Shown here: one piece after another, positions 830 through 7,611 of the stretch
How the letters are laid out: the number at the start of each line of letters is the position of its first letter
Position numbering within the stretch: position 1 is the stretch's first letter
NCBI RefSeq assembly: GCF_003386095.1
Contig: NZ_QREG01000002.1
Coordinates: forward strand, 287,255-351,254
Source: Marinoscillum furvescens DSM 4134
GTDB lineage: Bacteria; Bacteroidota; Bacteroidia; Cytophagales; Cyclobacteriaceae
Direction: 5' to 3'
Length of the DNA: 64,000 bases
Notes under the pieces: model-generated
Database searches by the model: none
What the model saw: only the letters and a program-made list of their open reading frames with translations
What the model was told of the DNA's origin: nothing
Program-made: the position numbers and the translations under genes

Positions 830-2101
830 ATGAATATCTACGCAAAACTGACGCTTCTTTGTGTGGCTTTGGTAGTGCTCACTTCGTCACTACTATATTT
901 CTTTGTCAACCAGGAACTGGAAAATGCCTTTCACGATGAGCTAGTAACACTGGCTACCGAACAACCTGAACTTATCAGTGCGAGCATTCAGGAGACTGTA
1001 GACCAAATACAAGAAAACCTCCTTTGGGTGATCCTTTCGGTGCTGGGTGGGGCGATCGTTCTTGCACTAGTGGTGGCAAACATCTTTGTGAAGCCCATCA
1101 TCAAACTCAGCAAAGCAGCGGAGCAAATAGGTCAGGGTAACTTACAGGCAGAAATCAAGGTACACTCTAACGATGAAGTGGGAAAACTTGCCGAGCAGCT
1201 TAGAAATGCCTCCCAGGTACTAATCAAACGTCTGGAGGAGCAGAAAAAGCTAAACGAGAAGCTCGAAAGCCAAAAAGACGAAATTTCCACTCAAAAGCAG
1301 CAACTCGAACATGCCAACAAACAAGTAGCTGATAGTATTGTGTATGCACAGCGCATACAGCGATCTATACTGCCAGACCTTTCGGTGATGAACAAACTTG
1401 TAAAGGATGCGTTCGTGATGTATCGACCAAAAGACGTAGTAAGTGGAGACTTCTACTGGTTTGAGCGTGTCCGCCAGGGACGCAATGAATACCTCATCAT
1501 AGCCTGTGCAGACTGTACTGGTCACGGAGTGCCTGGAGCTATTATGTCTATCATGGGTAGCAACCAGCTGACCAACATCGTGTATTACCAAAACTATGTA
1601 GACCCTAATAAAATATTAGCACGGCTAGATAAGGTTATTAAGTTTGAGTTGCAGCGCGATCAGGACAATCAAAATCGGGATGGATTGGAAATTGGTATCT
1701 GCGTAATCAACCTGGATGACCTGAGCATGGAATTTTCAGGAGCAGGGATTCCTCTATACCTTATCAAAAAAGGATCTCAGGAGCTCACCACCTACAAGAG
1801 CCCAAAATACATGATAGGTGGAATAGAAGGCGATGAAAAGGAAGTAGGCAACAAACTAAACAAGGAACAAATCCAGCTGGAGGATGGCGATAAGATCTAC
1901 CTTTCTTCTGATGGATTCCAGGATCAGTTTGGTGGACCTAATGACAAGAAGTTTATGAGCAAAAACTTTAAGCAATTGCTAGAAACCCACTGCATGCTTT
2001 CAATGGGTGAACAGCAAAAGCAAATCCAGTTGGCATTTGAAGATTGGAAGAAAAACTCACCACAGACTGATGATGTAGTGGTGATAGGTGTCGAAGTTTA
2101 A
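830..2101 (+). CDS. HAMP-PP2C (SpoIIE-type) protein phosphatase, SiaA-like
   Basis: Membrane-bound serine/threonine phosphatase of 423 residues. It has two transmembrane helices (about 6-26 and 67-90) flanking a short extracytoplasmic loop, a HAMP domain (about 91-140), a coiled coil (about 145-185) and a PP2C/SpoIIE catalytic domain. The acidic metal ligands are present: D207 in SGDFYW, D228 in CADCTGHG, and the terminal D414-D415 pair in QTDDVVVI. In SiaA/RsbU-type systems such an enzyme dephosphorylates a small switch protein, and a SiaB/SiaC pair lies 4 kb downstream. The frame is open back to an ATG at 719. I prefer 830 because MNIYAKLTLL begins a clean membrane anchor and a -7 box lies just upstream. 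Confidence 0.85.
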   Translation: MNIYAKLTLLCVALVVLTSSLLYFFVNQELENAFHDELVTLATEQPELISASIQETVDQIQENLLWVILSVLGGAIVLALVVANIFVKPIIKLSKAAEQIGQGNLQAEIKVHSNDEVGKLAEQLRNASQVLIKRLEEQKKLNEKLESQKDEISTQKQQLEHANKQVADSIVYAQRIQRSILPDLSVMNKLVKDAFVMYRPKDVVSGDFYWFERVRQGRNEYLIIACADCTGHGVPGAIMSIMGSNQLTNIVYYQNYVDPNKILARLDKVIKFELQRDQDNQNRDGLEIGICVINLDDLSMEFSGAGIPLYLIKKGSQELTTYKSPKYMIGGIEGDEKEVGNKLNKEQIQLEDGDKIYLSSDGFQDQFGGPNDKKFMSKNFKQLLETHCMLSMGEQQKQIQLAFEDWKKNSPQTDDVVVIGVEV

Positions 2102-2109
2102 AAATACCT

Positions 2110-2139
2110 CCTGACCTGATTGAGGTCAGGCACTTTTTA
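2110..2139 (+). terminator. intrinsic terminator after the phosphatase gene
   Basis: CCTGACCT (2110-2117) pairs with AGGTCAGG (2123-2130) around a 5-base loop, and a T-rich tract follows at 2133-2139. It begins 8 bases after the phosphatase stop codon. Confidence 0.7.
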
Positions 2140-2159
2140 TATAAATACACATCTACAGA

Positions 2160-2196
2160 AAAAGGTCTGAATCAACATTCAGACCTTTTTTATTTT
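2160..2196. terminator. second, probably bidirectional terminator hairpin
   Basis: AAAGGTCTGAAT (2161-2172) pairs with ATTCAGACCTTT (2177-2188) around CAAC, with T-rich sequence following on the plus strand and A-rich sequence preceding. It lies between two convergent genes (stops at 2101 and 2213), so it can end transcription from both sides. Two hairpins in tandem insulate the phosphatase from the facing operon. Confidence 0.75.
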
Positions 2197-2212
2197 CCTT
2201 GTGAAACTATGA

Positions 2213-2452
2213 TTAGTACCTAATGAGCAATGACTCATCTACTGACATTTCGTAAAGCTCCTCCAGAGCTTCATTCAAAGAGGTCAGTAATTCCGGTGGC
2301 AAATCTATATCCGGATCTAGTTCTTCCATTTGCTTTAAGGTCATACCTGCATCACGCACCTGATCCAGGCACTTCAAGCAGATACGTGTCCAGCTCTGTG
2401 GACTAATGTTTTCGGTACACCAATTTTTAAAATTACTTGCCTTTACTGCCAT
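2213..2452 (-). CDS. small acidic protein of unknown function, last gene of the kinase operon
   Basis: A 79-residue hydrophilic protein that I do not recognise. It has three cysteines (C12, C25, C28, the last two as CLKC), a predicted helical N-terminal half and a Leu/Glu-rich C-terminal half (SLNEALEELYEM). There is no signal peptide or membrane segment. It starts 12 bases after the stop of the REC-PP2C gene on the same strand and is followed by a terminator, so it is the third gene of a kinase / response regulator / small-protein operon. A role as a partner or target of the switch is inference from position only. Confidence 0.6.
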   Translation of the reverse strand: MAVKASNFKNWCTENISPQSWTRICLKCLDQVRDAGMTLKQMEELDPDIDLPPELLTSLNEALEELYEMSVDESLLIRY

Positions 2453-2464
2453 ATATACCCCCTG

Positions 2465-3712
2465 TTACAACCTAAAACCAATAATTGAAATATCATCTGT
2501 CAAGCCACTCTCTCCTATCCAGTCATCGACTGTTTGGTTGAGAAACTTATACTGCTCAGCGAGCGGTTTATCCTGAACAGACTTCAACATCTCTTCAAAC
2601 TTCTCCTGAGAAAACTTCACGCCATCCTGATTCTCCTGGTTGTAATAGCCATTAGAAAACATATAATAGGTGGCATTTGGTTCAATTGCAATTCGATCGG
2701 CCATAAGGTCATCGATGTTTTCCTCAGTTTCTCCTTCAAGTACGACCATTTCATTGCCATTGAAAATAATCATGTCTTGATTGATACCACTAAACTGTAA
2801 AGTCTGTGCATTGTTGTCGAACAATGCCACTGACACCTTCAAATCACACTGAAGCTCCTTAGAACCTGCAGCATCTAATTCTTGTGTAAGCTCTTTGATA
2901 ATGTCTCCTGAGTGGAAAATCTTACGGTCCTGTATGAGGTCATTGAGTATAGAATCAGCTATCAGGGTTTTTAGCGACCCCACTATACCTTTTCCATCAA
3001 ACTCAATTACTGCCACTACCGTGTAGTCCTCGGAGCGAAAATTCAAACTGGTAGTCCAGATAAACTCTTCGCTAAAGAGATACTTACTGCGATACATCAC
3101 AAAGTGGTCAGCCAATATCCTGCTCAGGTAGCGTTCGTTGGGCAGCATAGACTGCTGTAGCAATCCTGCATACCTGATACTGTCAATAAGGCGCTTATTG
3201 ATGTTCTTCAGCTCCTCTGTACGCTCTCGCACACGCTGCTCCAATTCTACATTGGTCACCTCAAGCTCTTTCATGTGCTCTTCGCTATCCTGAGACTGTT
3301 GGTAAGTCTCCATAGCCCTATCGAGCACCCCTTTCATTTCATCAAAGTTCCAGGGCTTGGTGATATACTTGTAGATCCCGCATCGGTTAATCCCATCTTT
3401 GATCGCCTCTATATCCGTAAAACCCGTAAGAATGATTTTGATCATATCCGGGTAGTCCGGCAAGATCTTCTCCAGGAGTTCCGTACCGGTCATTTCTGGC
3501 ATTCGCTGATCGGTGACTATTACCTGTATATCATTTTCCTTCAGGATGTCGATAGCCTCTAGAGGGTTATCGCAGGTATGAACATTAAAAAATTTCCTGA
3601 AATTTGACTTAAAGACCCGGAGATTGGTAGTCTCATCGTCCACATATAATAAAGAGTATTTTTTACTCTTCTTAACTCTTGATATCTCTGGTGAATCTTG
3701 AATCTCTTCCAT
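2465..3712 (-). CDS. response regulator with degenerate PP2C (SpoIIE-type) output domain
   Basis: 415 residues: a receiver domain (about 18-135) with phospho-acceptor D68 in VIVTDQRMPEM and the conserved lysine in YITKPW, a long coiled coil (about 140-180), then a SpoIIE-like PP2C domain (about 195-415). The PP2C domain aligns well with the phosphatase at 830-2101, but key metal ligands differ. SGDFYW becomes SEEFIW, and CADCTGHG becomes VIEFDGKG. The terminal TDD is kept. So the fold is retained but classical two-metal catalysis is doubtful. It sits 42 bases downstream of a histidine kinase, its likely phosphodonor. It may bind a phosphoprotein or regulate the active paralogue; the alternative is a weak phosphatase with altered metal use. 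Confidence 0.85.
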   Translation of the reverse strand: MEEIQDSPEISRVKKSKKYSLLYVDDETTNLRVFKSNFRKFFNVHTCDNPLEAIDILKENDIQVIVTDQRMPEMTGTELLEKILPDYPDMIKIILTGFTDIEAIKDGINRCGIYKYITKPWNFDEMKGVLDRAMETYQQSQDSEEHMKELEVTNVELEQRVRERTEELKNINKRLIDSIRYAGLLQQSMLPNERYLSRILADHFVMYRSKYLFSEEFIWTTSLNFRSEDYTVVAVIEFDGKGIVGSLKTLIADSILNDLIQDRKIFHSGDIIKELTQELDAAGSKELQCDLKVSVALFDNNAQTLQFSGINQDMIIFNGNEMVVLEGETEENIDDLMADRIAIEPNATYYMFSNGYYNQENQDGVKFSQEKFEEMLKSVQDKPLAEQYKFLNQTVDDWIGESGLTDDISIIGFRL

Positions 3713-3754
3713 CGCTGCTTAAATTCTTCTATTGATCGGTTAGTTTGAGATATA

Positions 3755-5656
3755 TTACTTGCTTTCGGCTACTTTACTGTCTTGAGATTGCTTTACTCTG
3801 GTTACTTTTTTGGGCAAAGTAATGACAAATTCTGTACCCTGATTTTCCTCGCTGGTAAACTCAATCTTTCCACCGTGCTTTTCAATAATTCCATAAGTAA
3901 TGGACATCCCTAATCCAGTTCCTACACCCACAGCTTTAGTGGTAAAGAATGGCTCCCAAATTCTGTTTTTGATCTTTTCAGGTATACCGACTCCATTATC
4001 TTTCAACCGGATCACCACTTCATCTTCCAGCTCTTCAGTGTAGATGGTAAGTTCTCCTTCTTTATTATCCTCAGGAATCGCCTGGATACCATTGTTCAGA
4101 ATGTTCATAAATACCTGGTTTAGCTGACCAGGGAAGCATTCTATGTCATTCATGTTTTCATCATAGTACTTGGATACCTTGATGCGATTCTTCGTCTTGT
4201 TTCTTAGAAGAGTAAGTGTAGCATCGATGTTTTCATTCACATTGGCAGACTTCACTTCTTCCTCATCAAGTCTAGAGAATACTCTCAGACCTTTAACGAT
4301 TTCTATTGTTCGGGTTACTCCGTAGTTTACATCTTTGATCAATTCGTCAAGTTCTTCGAGGATTTCTTCATATTCATGCTCCTCTTTCAGCTCCTTCACG
4401 TTCTCGATTACCTCAGCAGGATCAGCTCCTTCGTCCAGTCTCGAATACTCTTCGGCAATTTCTCGCAGGGATTCTATGGACATTTTTATGGATACCATTC
4501 CACTAGAAATGAAGTTGATCGGGTTGTTGATCTCATGGGCAATACCTGCCGTAAGCTGACCAAGTGATGCCATTTTCTCAGAGTGAACCAACTGCGACTG
4601 AGCACTTTTCAGTGATTGCAGTGCGTTGTTTAGCTCTTCTTTGGACTCTTGCTCTTTCTTAAGTGTCTCTTTAAGCTTTTTCTCTGCAAGGAAGAGCTTC
4701 TCATTATCCTGTAGCTGCTTATCTGCCAGCTCTCTGATTTCCTCTTCAGAATCCTGAAGTTTCTTATAAGCCAGGTTTAGTTCATCCTGAGCAGAAATAA
4801 GCTTTTCGTTGATTCGTATTTGCTCTTCGGATGATCGGAGCAACTTGGCCTCTGATTCTTGTAGTTTAGTGTTCTTTTCTTCGAGTTCTTTTCGAGACTG
4901 GTAGAGCTTTTTGTTAATCAACTTTTGTTTCTGGAAGTTGATCTTCAGCTGCTCCTCAGATTTCTTCACCTTTACATATGCCTTGTTTGCAGAGAGGTAG
5001 TTGTCGCTGGCAAGTTTTACCAAAGGTCTAAAAACAAAAAGTCCTTGTAATATCAGGAAACCAACAAAAAACCCGAATACAATTTTTTCCACAAGGCTAT
5101 AACCTGATTTGTAAGACTGAGCTTCCTCCACGAAATAGTCTGTAATATCATCAGTAGCAATCTGATACTTTCTAATGGTATTGATCAGTGTTTCGATGGA
5201 GCTACGCAAAGCCAGCGCATTGATATCAGTATCATTATTGGTATACACCACATCCATCAGGTTGGTCGCATTGATGTTCATCTCATTGTAAAAGAACTTA
5301 AGGTTCTCCTGCAAGGTGAGATAGGCTGAAGTCTGCGACGGAGCTGAAATACCCATTTCCGAACTTCCTGAAAGCAGTGCTTCATGGCCTTTGCGCCATT
5401 CGGGCAGGATCCGCCCCAGCTCTGTCTGGAAGATAGAAAAGTTGCGTTCGGTCTTGGAGTATCCCATACCGATAGCCGCTTTTACGATTTGTTGACCTAG
5501 CGTAGACTGGCGTGCTGCTACCTGAACTATCGCAGGGTCTTCATTAAAATTGTCGATTACATCTTTTTGCAGCACAAAGACGTAATAAGCAACAGAACCG
5601 GCCACTATTAAAGCAGTCAGCACATACGCTATAGCATAAAGGTCCTTCTTTAACAT
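3755..5656 (-). CDS. membrane sensor histidine kinase, HisKA/HATPase with long coiled coil
   Basis: 633 residues: TM helix 1 (about 7-28), an all-helical extracytoplasmic region (about 30-185) resembling the PilJ-type sensor module, TM helix 2 (about 190-212), then an unusually long coiled coil (about 225-365, repeated SEEQ and LQESE heptads). HisKA follows with phospho-acceptor H374 in GIAHEINNP, then HATPase_c with N-box [15 protein letters not shown] and TGLGMSI glycine boxes. It heads an operon with the REC-PP2C protein and the small protein at 2213. The coiled coil probably transmits the signal from the sensor module to the catalytic core. The ligand is not predictable. Confidence 0.88.
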
Positions 5657-6091
5657 ATTAAGTTGATGGGTTGGTTAAATTCGCTTAAATCTACAAACAC
5701 GTCATAGTAACGTTTTTGTATGAATCCCTAAATATAGGAATAATCCAATTGTAATATAATAAATCTAAGGTGGGAAAAGGAATTTCAGGTCCCGGCCGCA
5801 ATGGTTTTCAGTTTACCAGTCGCCCCGAATCATCCCTCCTGTTCCTACCTGAATTCTTATGCATTTTATATAGAAATCAAGAATCATACAATTGTCTGAC
5901 ATTCAAATGATCGCTATTTGGTATAAAAATAGTCTCAATCAGCATTATATTGCAGTCAATAAGCGCAGGGGTCATCACAAAAATCAATAAGTGTCTGACA
6001 CTGACCGATTTACTATTTTAGCATTTAAAGATTTGGTTAAATCCGTAAATAGTCTTTACTTTTCCAAAATTGAATAATCACAATAAATCGC
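5657..6091. promoter_or_regulatory. 435-bp divergent intergenic region of the switch locus
   Basis: No gene is seen here. The region separates the leftward kinase operon from the rightward siaB-siaC operon. It contains the decamer AGTAACGTTT at 5706-5715, which recurs at 7658-7667 ahead of the symporter gene, and two copies of GTCTGACA (near 5894 and 5993). A good plus-strand promoter lies at 6032-6064 (separate entry). A short GC-rich patch around 5790-5840 stands out from the AT-rich surroundings but shows no reading frame. Confidence 0.5.
6032..6064 (+). promoter_or_regulatory. promoter of the siaB-siaC operon
   Basis: TTTG at 6032-6035 is followed after exactly 21 bases by TACTTTTC at 6057-6064, a one-mismatch match to the Bacteroidota TTTG-N19-21-TAnnTTTG promoter. 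The start codon at 6092 is 27 bases downstream of the -7 box. Confidence 0.6.
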
Positions 6092-6652
6092 ATGGATTAT
6101 CTAAGAAGTTATAAAAATATATATGACCAGAATATAATTTTGATGTACAAAGGGGAATTGACCTTTGACTTAGTAACTTCGATGATTGCTACGCTGGAAG
6201 AACGCCTGGAAGAACTCGAGGAAAACAGAAAAGTAAAGAAGAAATTTTACAATGTGGCCACTGAATGTATCCAAAACCTGTATTATCATCTGGATGAAGT
6301 GAACTCAGATGAGATACGTATCAGTAGTTATGATTCCCGATCAGCATTGATCCTGATCGCTGCGCGCAAAAGATTTTACAGTTTACAGACGGGTAACTAT
6401 ATCCCTACTGAGAAAACTGAGGAAGTGAAAAAGCGACTGGATGATATCAATGCTGTAGAGCCAGACGAACTCCGAGCACTGTACAAGCAGGCGCTTAAAG
6501 AGCAAGAGTTCTCGGATAAAGGTACTGGTGGACTAGGATTTATCGATATTGCTAGAAAAACAGGTGGACAAAAATTAAGATATAAATTTCAACCGGTAAC
6601 TGACAATGTATCTTACTTTACATTGCAAGTGAGATTACCTAGAGAAATATAG
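6092..6652 (+). CDS. siaB: SiaB-family protein kinase (DUF6272)
   Basis: 186 residues, soluble. The pattern matches the SiaB/DUF6272 family, a divergent GHKL-ATPase fold that acts as the kinase for the small phosphoprotein SiaC: a leading IILMYKGELTFDLVTSM strand-helix, VATECIQNLYYHLDE at the position of the N-box helix, then KGTGGLGFIDIARKTG, a glycine-rich ATP-lid-like segment near the C-terminus. In Pseudomonas the SiaABCD set controls biofilm and aggregation through this kinase/phosphatase switch. It is first in a three-gene operon with siaC (28 bases downstream of its stop) and a coiled-coil membrane protein. The substrate is inferred from the neighbour. Confidence 0.85.
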   Translation: MDYLRSYKNIYDQNIILMYKGELTFDLVTSMIATLEERLEELEENRKVKKKFYNVATECIQNLYYHLDEVNSDEIRISSYDSRSALILIAARKRFYSLQTGNYIPTEKTEEVKKRLDDINAVEPDELRALYKQALKEQEFSDKGTGGLGFIDIARKTGGQKLRYKFQPVTDNVSYFTLQVRLPREI

Positions 6653-6680
6653 GTAAAGCGAAAACGCTGTGAATACACTT

Positions 6681-7064
6681 ATGGAAAAGATATTTATAGA
6701 GCCAACACGGGTTACACCATTAGTCAACTTCAATCCTGAAGAAGGGTTACTTGAGATCAAGGGACGTTCCAGCCCGGAAAACTCCATTCTTTTTTACCAA
6801 AAAGTAATTGATTCATTAGATGAATTTGCCCAAAGCGATTATGATGAATTCACGGCAAACTTTTCATTTGAATATTTTAATACGAGCTCTTCCAAATGTC
6901 TTTTTGATGTATTCAAACGACTAGGAAAAATAGAAGAAGCTGGTAAAAACCTCATTATCAACTGGTATTACGAGGAAGATGACGAGGATATGATGGAAGC
7001 AGGCGAAGATTATGCTGATTTGTTAGATTTAGAGTTTAACTTTCTCGAAATAGAAGAATTCTGA
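6681..7064 (+). CDS. siaC: SiaC-family regulatory phosphoprotein (DUF1987)
   Basis: 127 residues with the DUF1987 pattern: IEPTRVTPLVNFNPEEGLLEIKG strand pair, SSPENSILFYQ at the start of a helix, then FSFEYFNTSSSKCLFDVF, which carries the threonine/serine cluster where SiaC is phosphorylated in Pseudomonas. The C-terminus is very acidic (YEEDDEDMMEAGED). The protein should be phosphorylated by SiaB and dephosphorylated by a SiaA-type PP2C enzyme. The frame also offers a GTG at 6669. I chose the ATG at 6681 because MEKIFIEPT matches the usual family N-terminus. Confidence 0.87.
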   Translation: MEKIFIEPTRVTPLVNFNPEEGLLEIKGRSSPENSILFYQKVIDSLDEFAQSDYDEFTANFSFEYFNTSSSKCLFDVFKRLGKIEEAGKNLIINWYYEEDDEDMMEAGEDYADLLDLEFNFLEIEEF

Positions 7065-7080
7065 GGAACAAACCGGCTGT

Positions 7081-7611
7081 ATGGAAGGACCAAGAGAGCT
7101 CTATCATGAAGAAATAAAGAAGCTAAAAGACTTCCGGTCTCGATTAGACACCCATGCTATATACAAGCAAGATCTGGAGTCTTTCTCTGACGACTATGAA
7201 GAGCTCGTGGCCCAGGCCAAGGTAATCACCAGGGTATCTGATCGCCTTCAGAAAAAACTAGACAATGCCAACCTCCAAATCCGGGAGCAAAATGATGAGA
7301 TCAAGCTCAAAAACACGGAATTGGAGAAAACCATCCAACAACTCGTACAAGCCAGAGTAGGAAGAAAGGCCTCTACCATTATGTTTACCCTGGCCATCGT
7401 CCTGTTTATTTCTGAGGAATTTTTCCTTGAAGAAATGATCGAATCTTATGTTTCCATACCATACCTCGGACTCATCATCAAAGGGCTAATCGCACTGGGG
7501 TTGAAGTTTTTTGAATCCGCCCTGGAGACTTTCTTTCTCAATCAAGAGAAAAAGAAAATCATTGCGCAGGAAAGAAAAGAAGAAGAACTGCAAGCAGCAC
7601 TGGCAAACTAG
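7081..7611 (+). CDS. coiled-coil membrane protein of the Sia-type operon
   Basis: 176 residues. The N-terminal two thirds (about 1-95) is a charged coiled coil with heptads such as DRLQKKLDNANLQ and NDEIKLKNTELEK. Two hydrophobic segments follow (about 99-112 and 127-142), then a basic/acidic C-terminal helix (QEKKKIIAQERKEEEL). There is no signal peptide, so the long coiled coil is probably cytoplasmic. The ATG lies 16 bases after the siaC stop, so the gene is cotranscribed with the kinase and phosphoprotein. I do not recognise a named family. A membrane-tethered target or scaffold of the switch is an inference from context. Confidence 0.75.
   Translation: MEGPRELYHEEIKKLKDFRSRLDTHAIYKQDLESFSDDYEELVAQAKVITRVSDRLQKKLDNANLQIREQNDEIKLKNTELEKTIQQLVQARVGRKASTIMFTLAIVLFISEEFFLEEMIESYVSIPYLGLIIKGLIALGLKFFESALETFFLNQEKKKIIAQERKEEELQAALAN

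Follow-up and report, generated by a model that had tools for sequence, protein, structure and literature searches.

A SiaA-SiaB-SiaC locus of Marinoscillum furvescens with a putative membrane-hairpin effector and a candidate pseudophosphatase adaptor

In Pseudomonas aeruginosa, in a switch known from biofilm control, Thr68 of SiaC is phosphorylated by SiaB and dephosphorylated by SiaA, and it is the unphosphorylated form of SiaC that binds and activates SiaD (PMC7278518). According to sections of the structural report (PMC8457831), the SiaD stalk provides S82 and Q86 as hydrogen-bond partners for Thr68 in the SiaC-SiaD crystal, and the neighbors of Thr68 contact Q86 and D83. Here we describe a gene cluster encoding relatives of SiaA, SiaB, and SiaC, together with a coiled-coil membrane protein and a reverse-strand kinase cassette, at positions 830-7611 of a 64,000-nucleotide stretch (hereafter, the window) of contig NZ_QREG01000002.1, from the 5.96 Mb genome of Marinoscillum furvescens DSM 4134.

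The authors of the eLife 2021 study suggest, in sections of that text, that modulating adjacent proteins is a general role of DUF1987 proteins, and the published work that we found treats SiaC as the switch of one Pseudomonas cyclase. In the open-licence literature searched, DUF1987, DUF6272, PF09345, and PF19788 are mentioned in a single study; titles and abstract openings yielded no work, the Pseudomonas study aside, on SiaC or SiaD with a coiled-coil protein in Bacteroidetes or Cytophagales, and for pseudophosphatase PP2C response regulators in bacteria only plant work surfaced. HsbR combines a receiver with a PP2C domain. It belongs to the HptB-HsbR-HsbA-HsbD system of P. aeruginosa, a partner switch that controls a diguanylate cyclase via a phosphorylatable antagonist (sections of PMC7647112); in those sections HsbA is an anti-sigma factor antagonist, not a SiaC protein, and HsbD is a cyclase. 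RssB, an adaptor for sigma-S proteolysis, lacks the phosphatase active-site residues and needs no phosphatase activity, as described in parts of PMC5468089 and PMC7226468.

Sia proteins and a docking stalk beside siaC

The locus probably encodes a SiaA-SiaB-SiaC partner switch that has swapped its output enzyme for another protein, with a kinase-controlled pseudophosphatase adaptor beside it. The sequence shows an intact SiaA, SiaB, and SiaC, the last retaining its phospho-threonine, followed by a gene that encodes the stalk motif gripped by SiaC in SiaD, joined to a membrane hairpin in place of a diguanylate cyclase. The forward-strand siaA is separated from siaB, siaC, and the coiled-coil gene by three genes on the reverse strand:

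830-2101, forward: SiaA-type phosphatase with two predicted transmembrane segments and a short loop, HAMP, linker, and SpoIIE/PP2C domain (Pfam, PDB match, hydropathy)
2213-2452, reverse: 79-residue small protein whose family has no name, encoded at the end of the cassette of histidine kinase, receiver-PP2C (REC-PP2C) protein, and small protein (open reading frame, alignment)
2465-3712, reverse: response regulator with receiver, helical linker, and degenerate PP2C domain (Pfam, alignment, model)
3755-5656, reverse: membrane histidine kinase of 633 residues (Pfam, hydropathy)
6092-6652, forward: SiaB-family protein kinase, DUF6272 (Pfam, NCBIfam)
6681-7064, forward: SiaC phosphoprotein from its probable ATG start (Pfam, PDB match); the open reading frame with a GTG start spans 6669-7064
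7081-7611, forward: coiled-coil protein with a SiaD-type docking stalk, a membrane hairpin of two helices, and a charged tail (motif, profile, model)

All of these open reading frames (ORFs) lie where the original prediction, made from the sequence alone, had placed them, and Pfam recognises all but the small and coiled-coil proteins; the SiaA-SiaB-SiaC logic that it proposed finds support in the protein families, in their key residues, and in a gene order shared among genomes. The locus resembles SiaABCD in its membrane HAMP-PP2C phosphatase, its SiaB kinase, a SiaC with an NTSS phosphosite, and a next gene with a docking stalk, but differs in that the fourth gene encodes a membrane hairpin in place of GGDEF and in the reverse-strand cassette between siaA and siaB.

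Protein families were scored with Pfam (SpoIIE cut-off, 25 bits) and NCBIfam. The SpoIIE/PP2C domain of SiaA (71.8 bits, alongside HAMP) has SiaA-PP2C as its best PDB match (6k4e, E=8.2e-36) and is active-looking, with the metal ligands D457, D474, D600, and D653 (numbered as in the available sections of PMC7647112) all kept. SiaA is short (423-425 residues) in the window, G001, and G003 (G-numbers denote genomes read, G000 being the window's own, and L-numbers denote loci read), whereas two same-genus orthologues, in G005 and G002, carry an additional N-terminal dCache domain, which Pfam does not find in the window's SiaA; the input to SiaA has therefore also changed. SiaB scores 113.9 bits for DUF6272 and 133.8 bits for the NCBIfam SiaB_fam_kinase model (cut-off 85), and is the sole DUF6272 match in the genome. 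It aligns to Pseudomonas SiaB (6kko, E=1.4e-5), keeping E-x-x-Q-N and GLG-x-x-D-I-A-R-K; the catalytic glutamate motif, mapped by eye on this alignment, corresponds to Glu61, the predicted catalytic residue in sections of PMC7647112. Matches of SiaB to ubiquitin chains look like chance. SiaC (Pfam, 135.1 bits) matches Pseudomonas SiaC (6k4f, E=1.2e-12), and its YFNTSSSK retains the threonine equivalent to Thr68 within the N-T-S-S phosphosite. Its translation probably starts at 6681 (ATG) and not at 6669 (GTG), since most close orthologues have 126-129 residues. There are ten SiaC-family matches in the genome, nine of them over the cut-off; nine were read, the tenth being a 50-residue partial match, and among those read YFNTSSSK occurs only in the window's SiaC, and N-T-S is kept in two others.

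The coiled-coil membrane protein is most likely the effector of SiaC. It has no Pfam family and no recognisable enzyme domain; in its model (helices at residues 9-23, 29-123, and 127-175), the long helix carries K-V-I-T-R-V-S-D-R-L-Q at a place matching the SiaD docking site, so that RVSDRLQ (residues 51-57, DNA 7231-7251) stands against RISDRYQ of SiaD, with the stalk motif S-D-x-x-Q shared. Because it carries this SiaD-type docking motif, the protein is the probable output of the switch; the original prediction had recorded a coiled-coil membrane protein after siaC, and the motif had gone unnoticed. A 30-residue SiaD stretch scores 45 on the window's protein, a value reached by none of 364,573 30-mers from stalk-less ORFs (maximum 36). 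The NCBIfam SiaD model matches it at E=0.003, though at 17 bits, far under the family cut-off of 290, and a 15-member family profile ranks SiaD (7e6g) first of 177,635 PDB sequences, at the docking site (E=0.49). In hairpin proteins gathered by a motif-free whole-protein search, the aspartate is present in 22/22, the serine in 20/22, and the glutamine in 19/22, with histidine for glutamine in three. An apparent invariance of the motif in 29/29 proteins was set aside as circular, all but the window's protein having been fetched by a motif-containing peptide pattern; for loci obtained in this way only the adjoining SiaC is informative, and SiaC lies beside 28 of the 29. Chance coiled-coil similarity is ruled out by the 30-mer null, by a reversed-sequence control (below), and by adjacency to siaC, and matches to Piwi-like proteins (phmmer, E 0.5-1) look like chance.

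No GGDEF match was found in this protein or in the window's genome, in a search whose positive control matched in 8/14; a cyclic di-GMP output is therefore unlikely. Among 59 relatives, the hairpin protein with its stalk occurs in 20, all of which have SiaC (present in 45/59 overall), and in 18 of these 20 it lies beside or fused to SiaC; a natural SiaC-stalk-hairpin fusion is found at L024/L180 (925-1899 of L024, forward). G004 matches the coiled-coil protein only by a 74-residue protein without the motif, and G011 and G051, which have no SiaC, match only by the tail. Without the stalk, the hairpin tail is found on three receiver proteins (L179, L181, and L182, in G011, G051, and G044). At L031, L034, and L035 (G004, G001, and G003), a 74-residue protein resembles the first half of the coiled-coil protein and lacks S-D-x-x-Q.

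The stalk also occurs on other outputs. A profile built only from the heads of two-transmembrane proteins matched 15 of 689 ORFs, of which 13 adjoin siaC, one is fused to SiaC, and one has no SiaC found with it; the reversed-sequence control gave one match (E=0.013). Outputs other than the hairpin, or none, accompany 10 of the 15:

L125, L128: GGDEF (Pfam)
L127: HisKA-HATPase (Pfam); L126, L138: histidine kinase (hidden Markov model)
L137: guanylate cyclase (Pfam)
L134: SpoIIE (Pfam)
L130, L140, L142: stand-alone stalk, no other output

In these ten non-hairpin stalks the aspartate and glutamine are present in 10/10, and the third position is serine in four and glycine in six. Among loci chosen by SiaC alone (L124-L143, n=20, taken from 26 phylum-wide matches outside the window's own genome, the other six being left out), a stalk protein stands at siaC in 11 of 20. 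To judge by sequence, this is what an exchangeable docking part joined to an exchangeable output part would look like. Loci L144-L178 were picked mostly via SiaB matches, and L170, L171, L180, and L183 via the coiled-coil search, such that the stalk of these four carries no independent information; siaC of L124 and L131, and the first siaC of L153, were missed by ORF selection and placed by searches. SiaC was present in only 18 of 296 genomes in a phylum-wide draw, and the system is therefore not general in the phylum.

Several other arrangements of SiaB and SiaC were observed. In the window's own genome, four tandem SiaC-family genes lie at contig C1:514734-517214 (L067, 8672-11311), none reading N-T-S at the phosphosite and with no SiaB within the 20-kb stretch. 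A natural SiaB-SiaC fusion is found at L086 (9574-10539, reverse), and tandem double-SiaB proteins (ORFs of 364-366 residues) adjoin a SiaC at L143, L153, and L154. L139 (5662-7539, reverse) encodes a natural REC-PP2C-SiaB fusion, with SiaC and a stalk-hairpin protein next to it; of the loci read, this layout would come nearest to HptB-HsbR-HsbA-HsbD.

A degenerate PP2C response regulator between siaA and siaB

The original prediction called for a comparison of gene order, and co-occurrence holds in 12 of the 13 genomes with the cassette beside siaB and siaC. The arrangement is more than coincidence: 12 distinct genomes, that of the window among them, have the whole order (SiaA; small protein, REC-PP2C, histidine kinase; SiaB, SiaC, coiled-coil protein), a count that leaves out L096, L097, and L098 as the same contigs as L076, L075, and L073. 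The thirteenth, G004, has small protein, REC-PP2C, histidine kinase, SiaB, and SiaC on a contig of 7.9 kb whose end lies in siaC; a different gene occupies the expected place of siaA. Both Marinoscillum and Ekhidna are among these genomes (Reichenbachiellaceae, Cytophagales, by taxonomy look-up). In same-genus loci with the whole cluster, the left-flanking DUF302 gene is kept in 4/4 and the right-flanking gene, labelled SSS, in 3/4. At L077 (G036, contig C64), the SSS and DUF302 genes that flank the window's cluster enclose a siaB gene whose product shares 60% identity with the window's SiaB; siaA, the cassette, siaC, and the effector are all absent there, and a siaB-siaC-effector set lies on another contig.

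Two PP2C proteins had been predicted, and both ORFs do have a SpoIIE match, but the second looks like a pseudophosphatase. The REC-PP2C protein has a receiver (69.5 bits) and a weak SpoIIE domain (30.5 bits) in which, relative to SiaA, D457 and D474 are replaced by E, D600 by N, and GHG by GKG, while D653 is kept, leaving E, E, N, and D as ligands. Three of the four metal-binding aspartates are thus lost, in 16/16 rows from 13/13 genomes (L104 has A in place of the second E), and this agreement among 13 genomes rules out sequencing error. By comparison, 71 of 73 SpoIIE rows without a receiver are intact (rows not reduced to distinct genomes), the two exceptions being incomplete matches, and REC-PP2C proteins of other types (L130, L140, and L168) are intact as well. 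The receiver residues D25, D26, D68, T96, and K119 are invariant (11/11), compatible with the predicted feeding of the receiver by the kinase.

The degenerate domain is well conserved. Nonsynonymous divergence (dN) from the window is 0.08-0.11 within the genus (five pairs), against 0.18 for the SiaA PP2C (two usable pairs; rows L074 and L076 left out), and 0.175-0.266 against 0.194-0.275 outside it; the degenerate domain has the lower dN in 5/5 usable pairs, by little outside the genus, which rules out a pseudogene. The ratio dN/dS was not obtainable because synonymous divergence (dS) is saturated in nearly all pairs. In sequence the protein is nearer to SiaA-PP2C (E=4.7e-21). For its model, which is of middling confidence (mean predicted local distance difference test score of 79.7, five models spanning 51.5-79.7; predicted template modeling score of 0.56), Foldseek returned RssB (3f7a/3eq2) first by E-value, with full-length template modeling (TM) scores of 0.43-0.50, and SiaA-PP2C (6k4e) over the domain (TMt 0.85). 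The protein thus shares with RssB a phosphorylatable receiver, a helical linker, and a PP2C fold without its active-site aspartates. It differs in that the low full-length TM leaves the domain arrangement unmatched and in that it sits in a SiaC locus; the likeness covers domain content and the lost active site, not the ClpX/sigma-S role.

The histidine kinase has HATPase_c (82.8 bits), with HisKA below cut-off and an NCBIfam T2SS_HK score of 218.8 bits, below the cut-off of 450; its hydropathy indicates two hydrophobic segments flanking ∼155 residues, then a long coiled-coil-like stretch and the HATPase. The 79-residue protein has no Pfam family over cut-off and no NCBIfam match; W11, N15, S17, P18, W21, and R23 are invariant in its 12-member alignment, and it is matched in 20 of 291 genomes of the order, its own included. 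Among the loci annotated, its gene is confined to those of cassette-bearing genomes plus L168 and L169.

At L107 and L116, siaA-siaB-siaC-effector form one co-directional run, as in SiaABCD, with nothing between, and these genomes (G611 and G614) carry a cassette of histidine kinase, degenerate REC-PP2C, and small protein elsewhere (L225, L226, L231, and L232). The REC-PP2C of L225 and L226 has lost D474 and D600 and kept D457. The simplest account would be that a cassette with a part-decayed phosphatase was inserted between siaA and siaB in an ancestor of the Marinoscillum/Ekhidna group; the kinase cassette apparently joined the siaABC locus later.

Proposed switch and alternative explanations

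In the mechanism that we propose, SiaB would phosphorylate SiaC on its threonine, keeping SiaC off. With SiaA active, unphosphorylated SiaC would bind the coiled-coil stalk at S53, D54, and Q57, clamp it as a dimer, and thereby change the membrane hairpin. The opposite-strand histidine kinase would phosphorylate the receiver of the pseudophosphatase, which would be unable to remove phosphate and may still bind SiaC or phosphorylated SiaC (SiaC-P); as an RssB-like kinase-controlled adaptor or sponge, it would shift how much SiaC reaches the stalk.

The original prediction had instead given the switch two phosphatase inputs, and in this reading both PP2C proteins would be SiaC-P phosphatases, one HAMP-gated and one gated by the histidine kinase. 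The second protein does keep the PP2C fold (in the comparison with 6k4e) and D653, and other REC-PP2C proteins near SiaC are intact (L130, L140, L168, and L228). Nonetheless, two phosphatase inputs are highly improbable because three of the four metal-binding aspartates are replaced in 13/13 genomes, where GHG has also become GKG, and the second group of such proteins, at L225 and L226, likewise lacks D474 and D600. Together with the lower dN, the intact receiver, and the RssB likeness, the degenerate active site leads us to read the REC-PP2C protein as a kinase-controlled binding protein, and a SiaC-binding adaptor is the likelier role. That its partner is SiaC we infer from position and from a paralogous cassette in G002 (L168), which pairs SiaC with a histidine kinase, an intact REC-PP2C, and a small protein. 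The cassette could also be an independent pathway merely sitting between siaA and siaB, which we consider rather unlikely. Consistent with independence, the cassette of G611 and G614 has a locus of its own (19.0 and 11.4 kb read, in which neither SiaB nor SiaC occurs), and the siaA-siaB-siaC-effector run of these genomes is contiguous; across the order, most small-protein homologues adjoin genes unmatched by the profiles used. Arguing the other way are the same placement in 13 genomes, including those of Marinoscillum and Ekhidna, the return of SiaC in the paralogous G002 cassette, and the recurrence at L228 of a REC-PP2C protein adjoining SiaC.

The coiled-coil protein, for its part, might only anchor and concentrate SiaC at the membrane, or might regulate the switch from upstream, with the true output elsewhere. 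Such a role is doubtful, though the absence of a recognisable enzyme domain would fit it, as would nine further SiaC-family matches (eight of them read, none with YFNTSSSK) and four further SpoIIE matches in the genome, which mean that a wider network exists. Yet in gene position and in docking site the protein corresponds to the output protein of GGDEF-type loci, its tail recurs on the stalk-less receiver proteins, as expected of an output module, and the invariance of E113 and K134 in its hairpin region (15/15) is more than a plain anchor needs. Against the coiled-coil protein as docked effector, several further observations should be weighed. SiaC residues corresponding to the Pseudomonas contact surface (I71, M75, and D79) are, by eye, not conserved here; SiaD has two docking motifs and the hairpin protein one; taken by itself, the profile match to SiaD in the PDB falls short of significance, and Foldseek with the hairpin model gave no SiaD match. 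Glutamine is replaced by histidine in the hairpin proteins of G007, G020, and G027, two of them right beside siaC, and serine by glycine in those of G020 and G052. In G041 the gene for the coiled-coil protein adjoins siaB, and siaC lies elsewhere; for the coiled-coil proteins of G020 and L117, no neighboring SiaC was found. The commonest neighbor of SiaC, a ∼1030-residue protein at 20 of the 49 SiaC genes read, is not matched by the stalk profile, so SiaC need not always use this stalk. Finally, the separation of the pseudophosphatase cassette from siaABC in G611 and G614 means that its tie to SiaC may be positional.

The ∼1030-residue proteins belong to a gene run that recurs among the loci read: large sensor PP2C protein, SiaB, SiaC, and ∼1030-residue protein (L135, L136, L144-L152, L154-L159, L162, L175, and L177). 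The three of the 20 that were run on Pfam (L146, L154, and L158) are TerB-ABC-ABC2 transporters, and the SiaCs of the run have YFNTASSKL or a sequence close to it; a transporter may be under SiaC control at these loci.

Implications for SiaC switches

The loci described here turn the published suggestion about DUF1987 proteins and their neighbors into a testable rule: the protein after siaC often carries a docking stalk, and the output can be read from the remainder of that protein. A partner is thereby offered for an unnamed family of membrane hairpin proteins, SiaC switch genes are shown in a genome with no GGDEF match, and a conserved candidate pseudophosphatase response regulator is added outside the RssB setting. 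More tentatively, SiaC could be a general clamp for an exchangeable stalk borne by diguanylate cyclases, histidine kinases, nucleotide cyclases, PP2C phosphatases, and, in Cytophagales, a second-messenger-free hairpin. In the Marinoscillum/Ekhidna group, a histidine kinase might also act on this clamp, by way of a pseudophosphatase able to capture SiaC or SiaC-P; such a decoy, gated by phosphorylation, would replace a second phosphatase.

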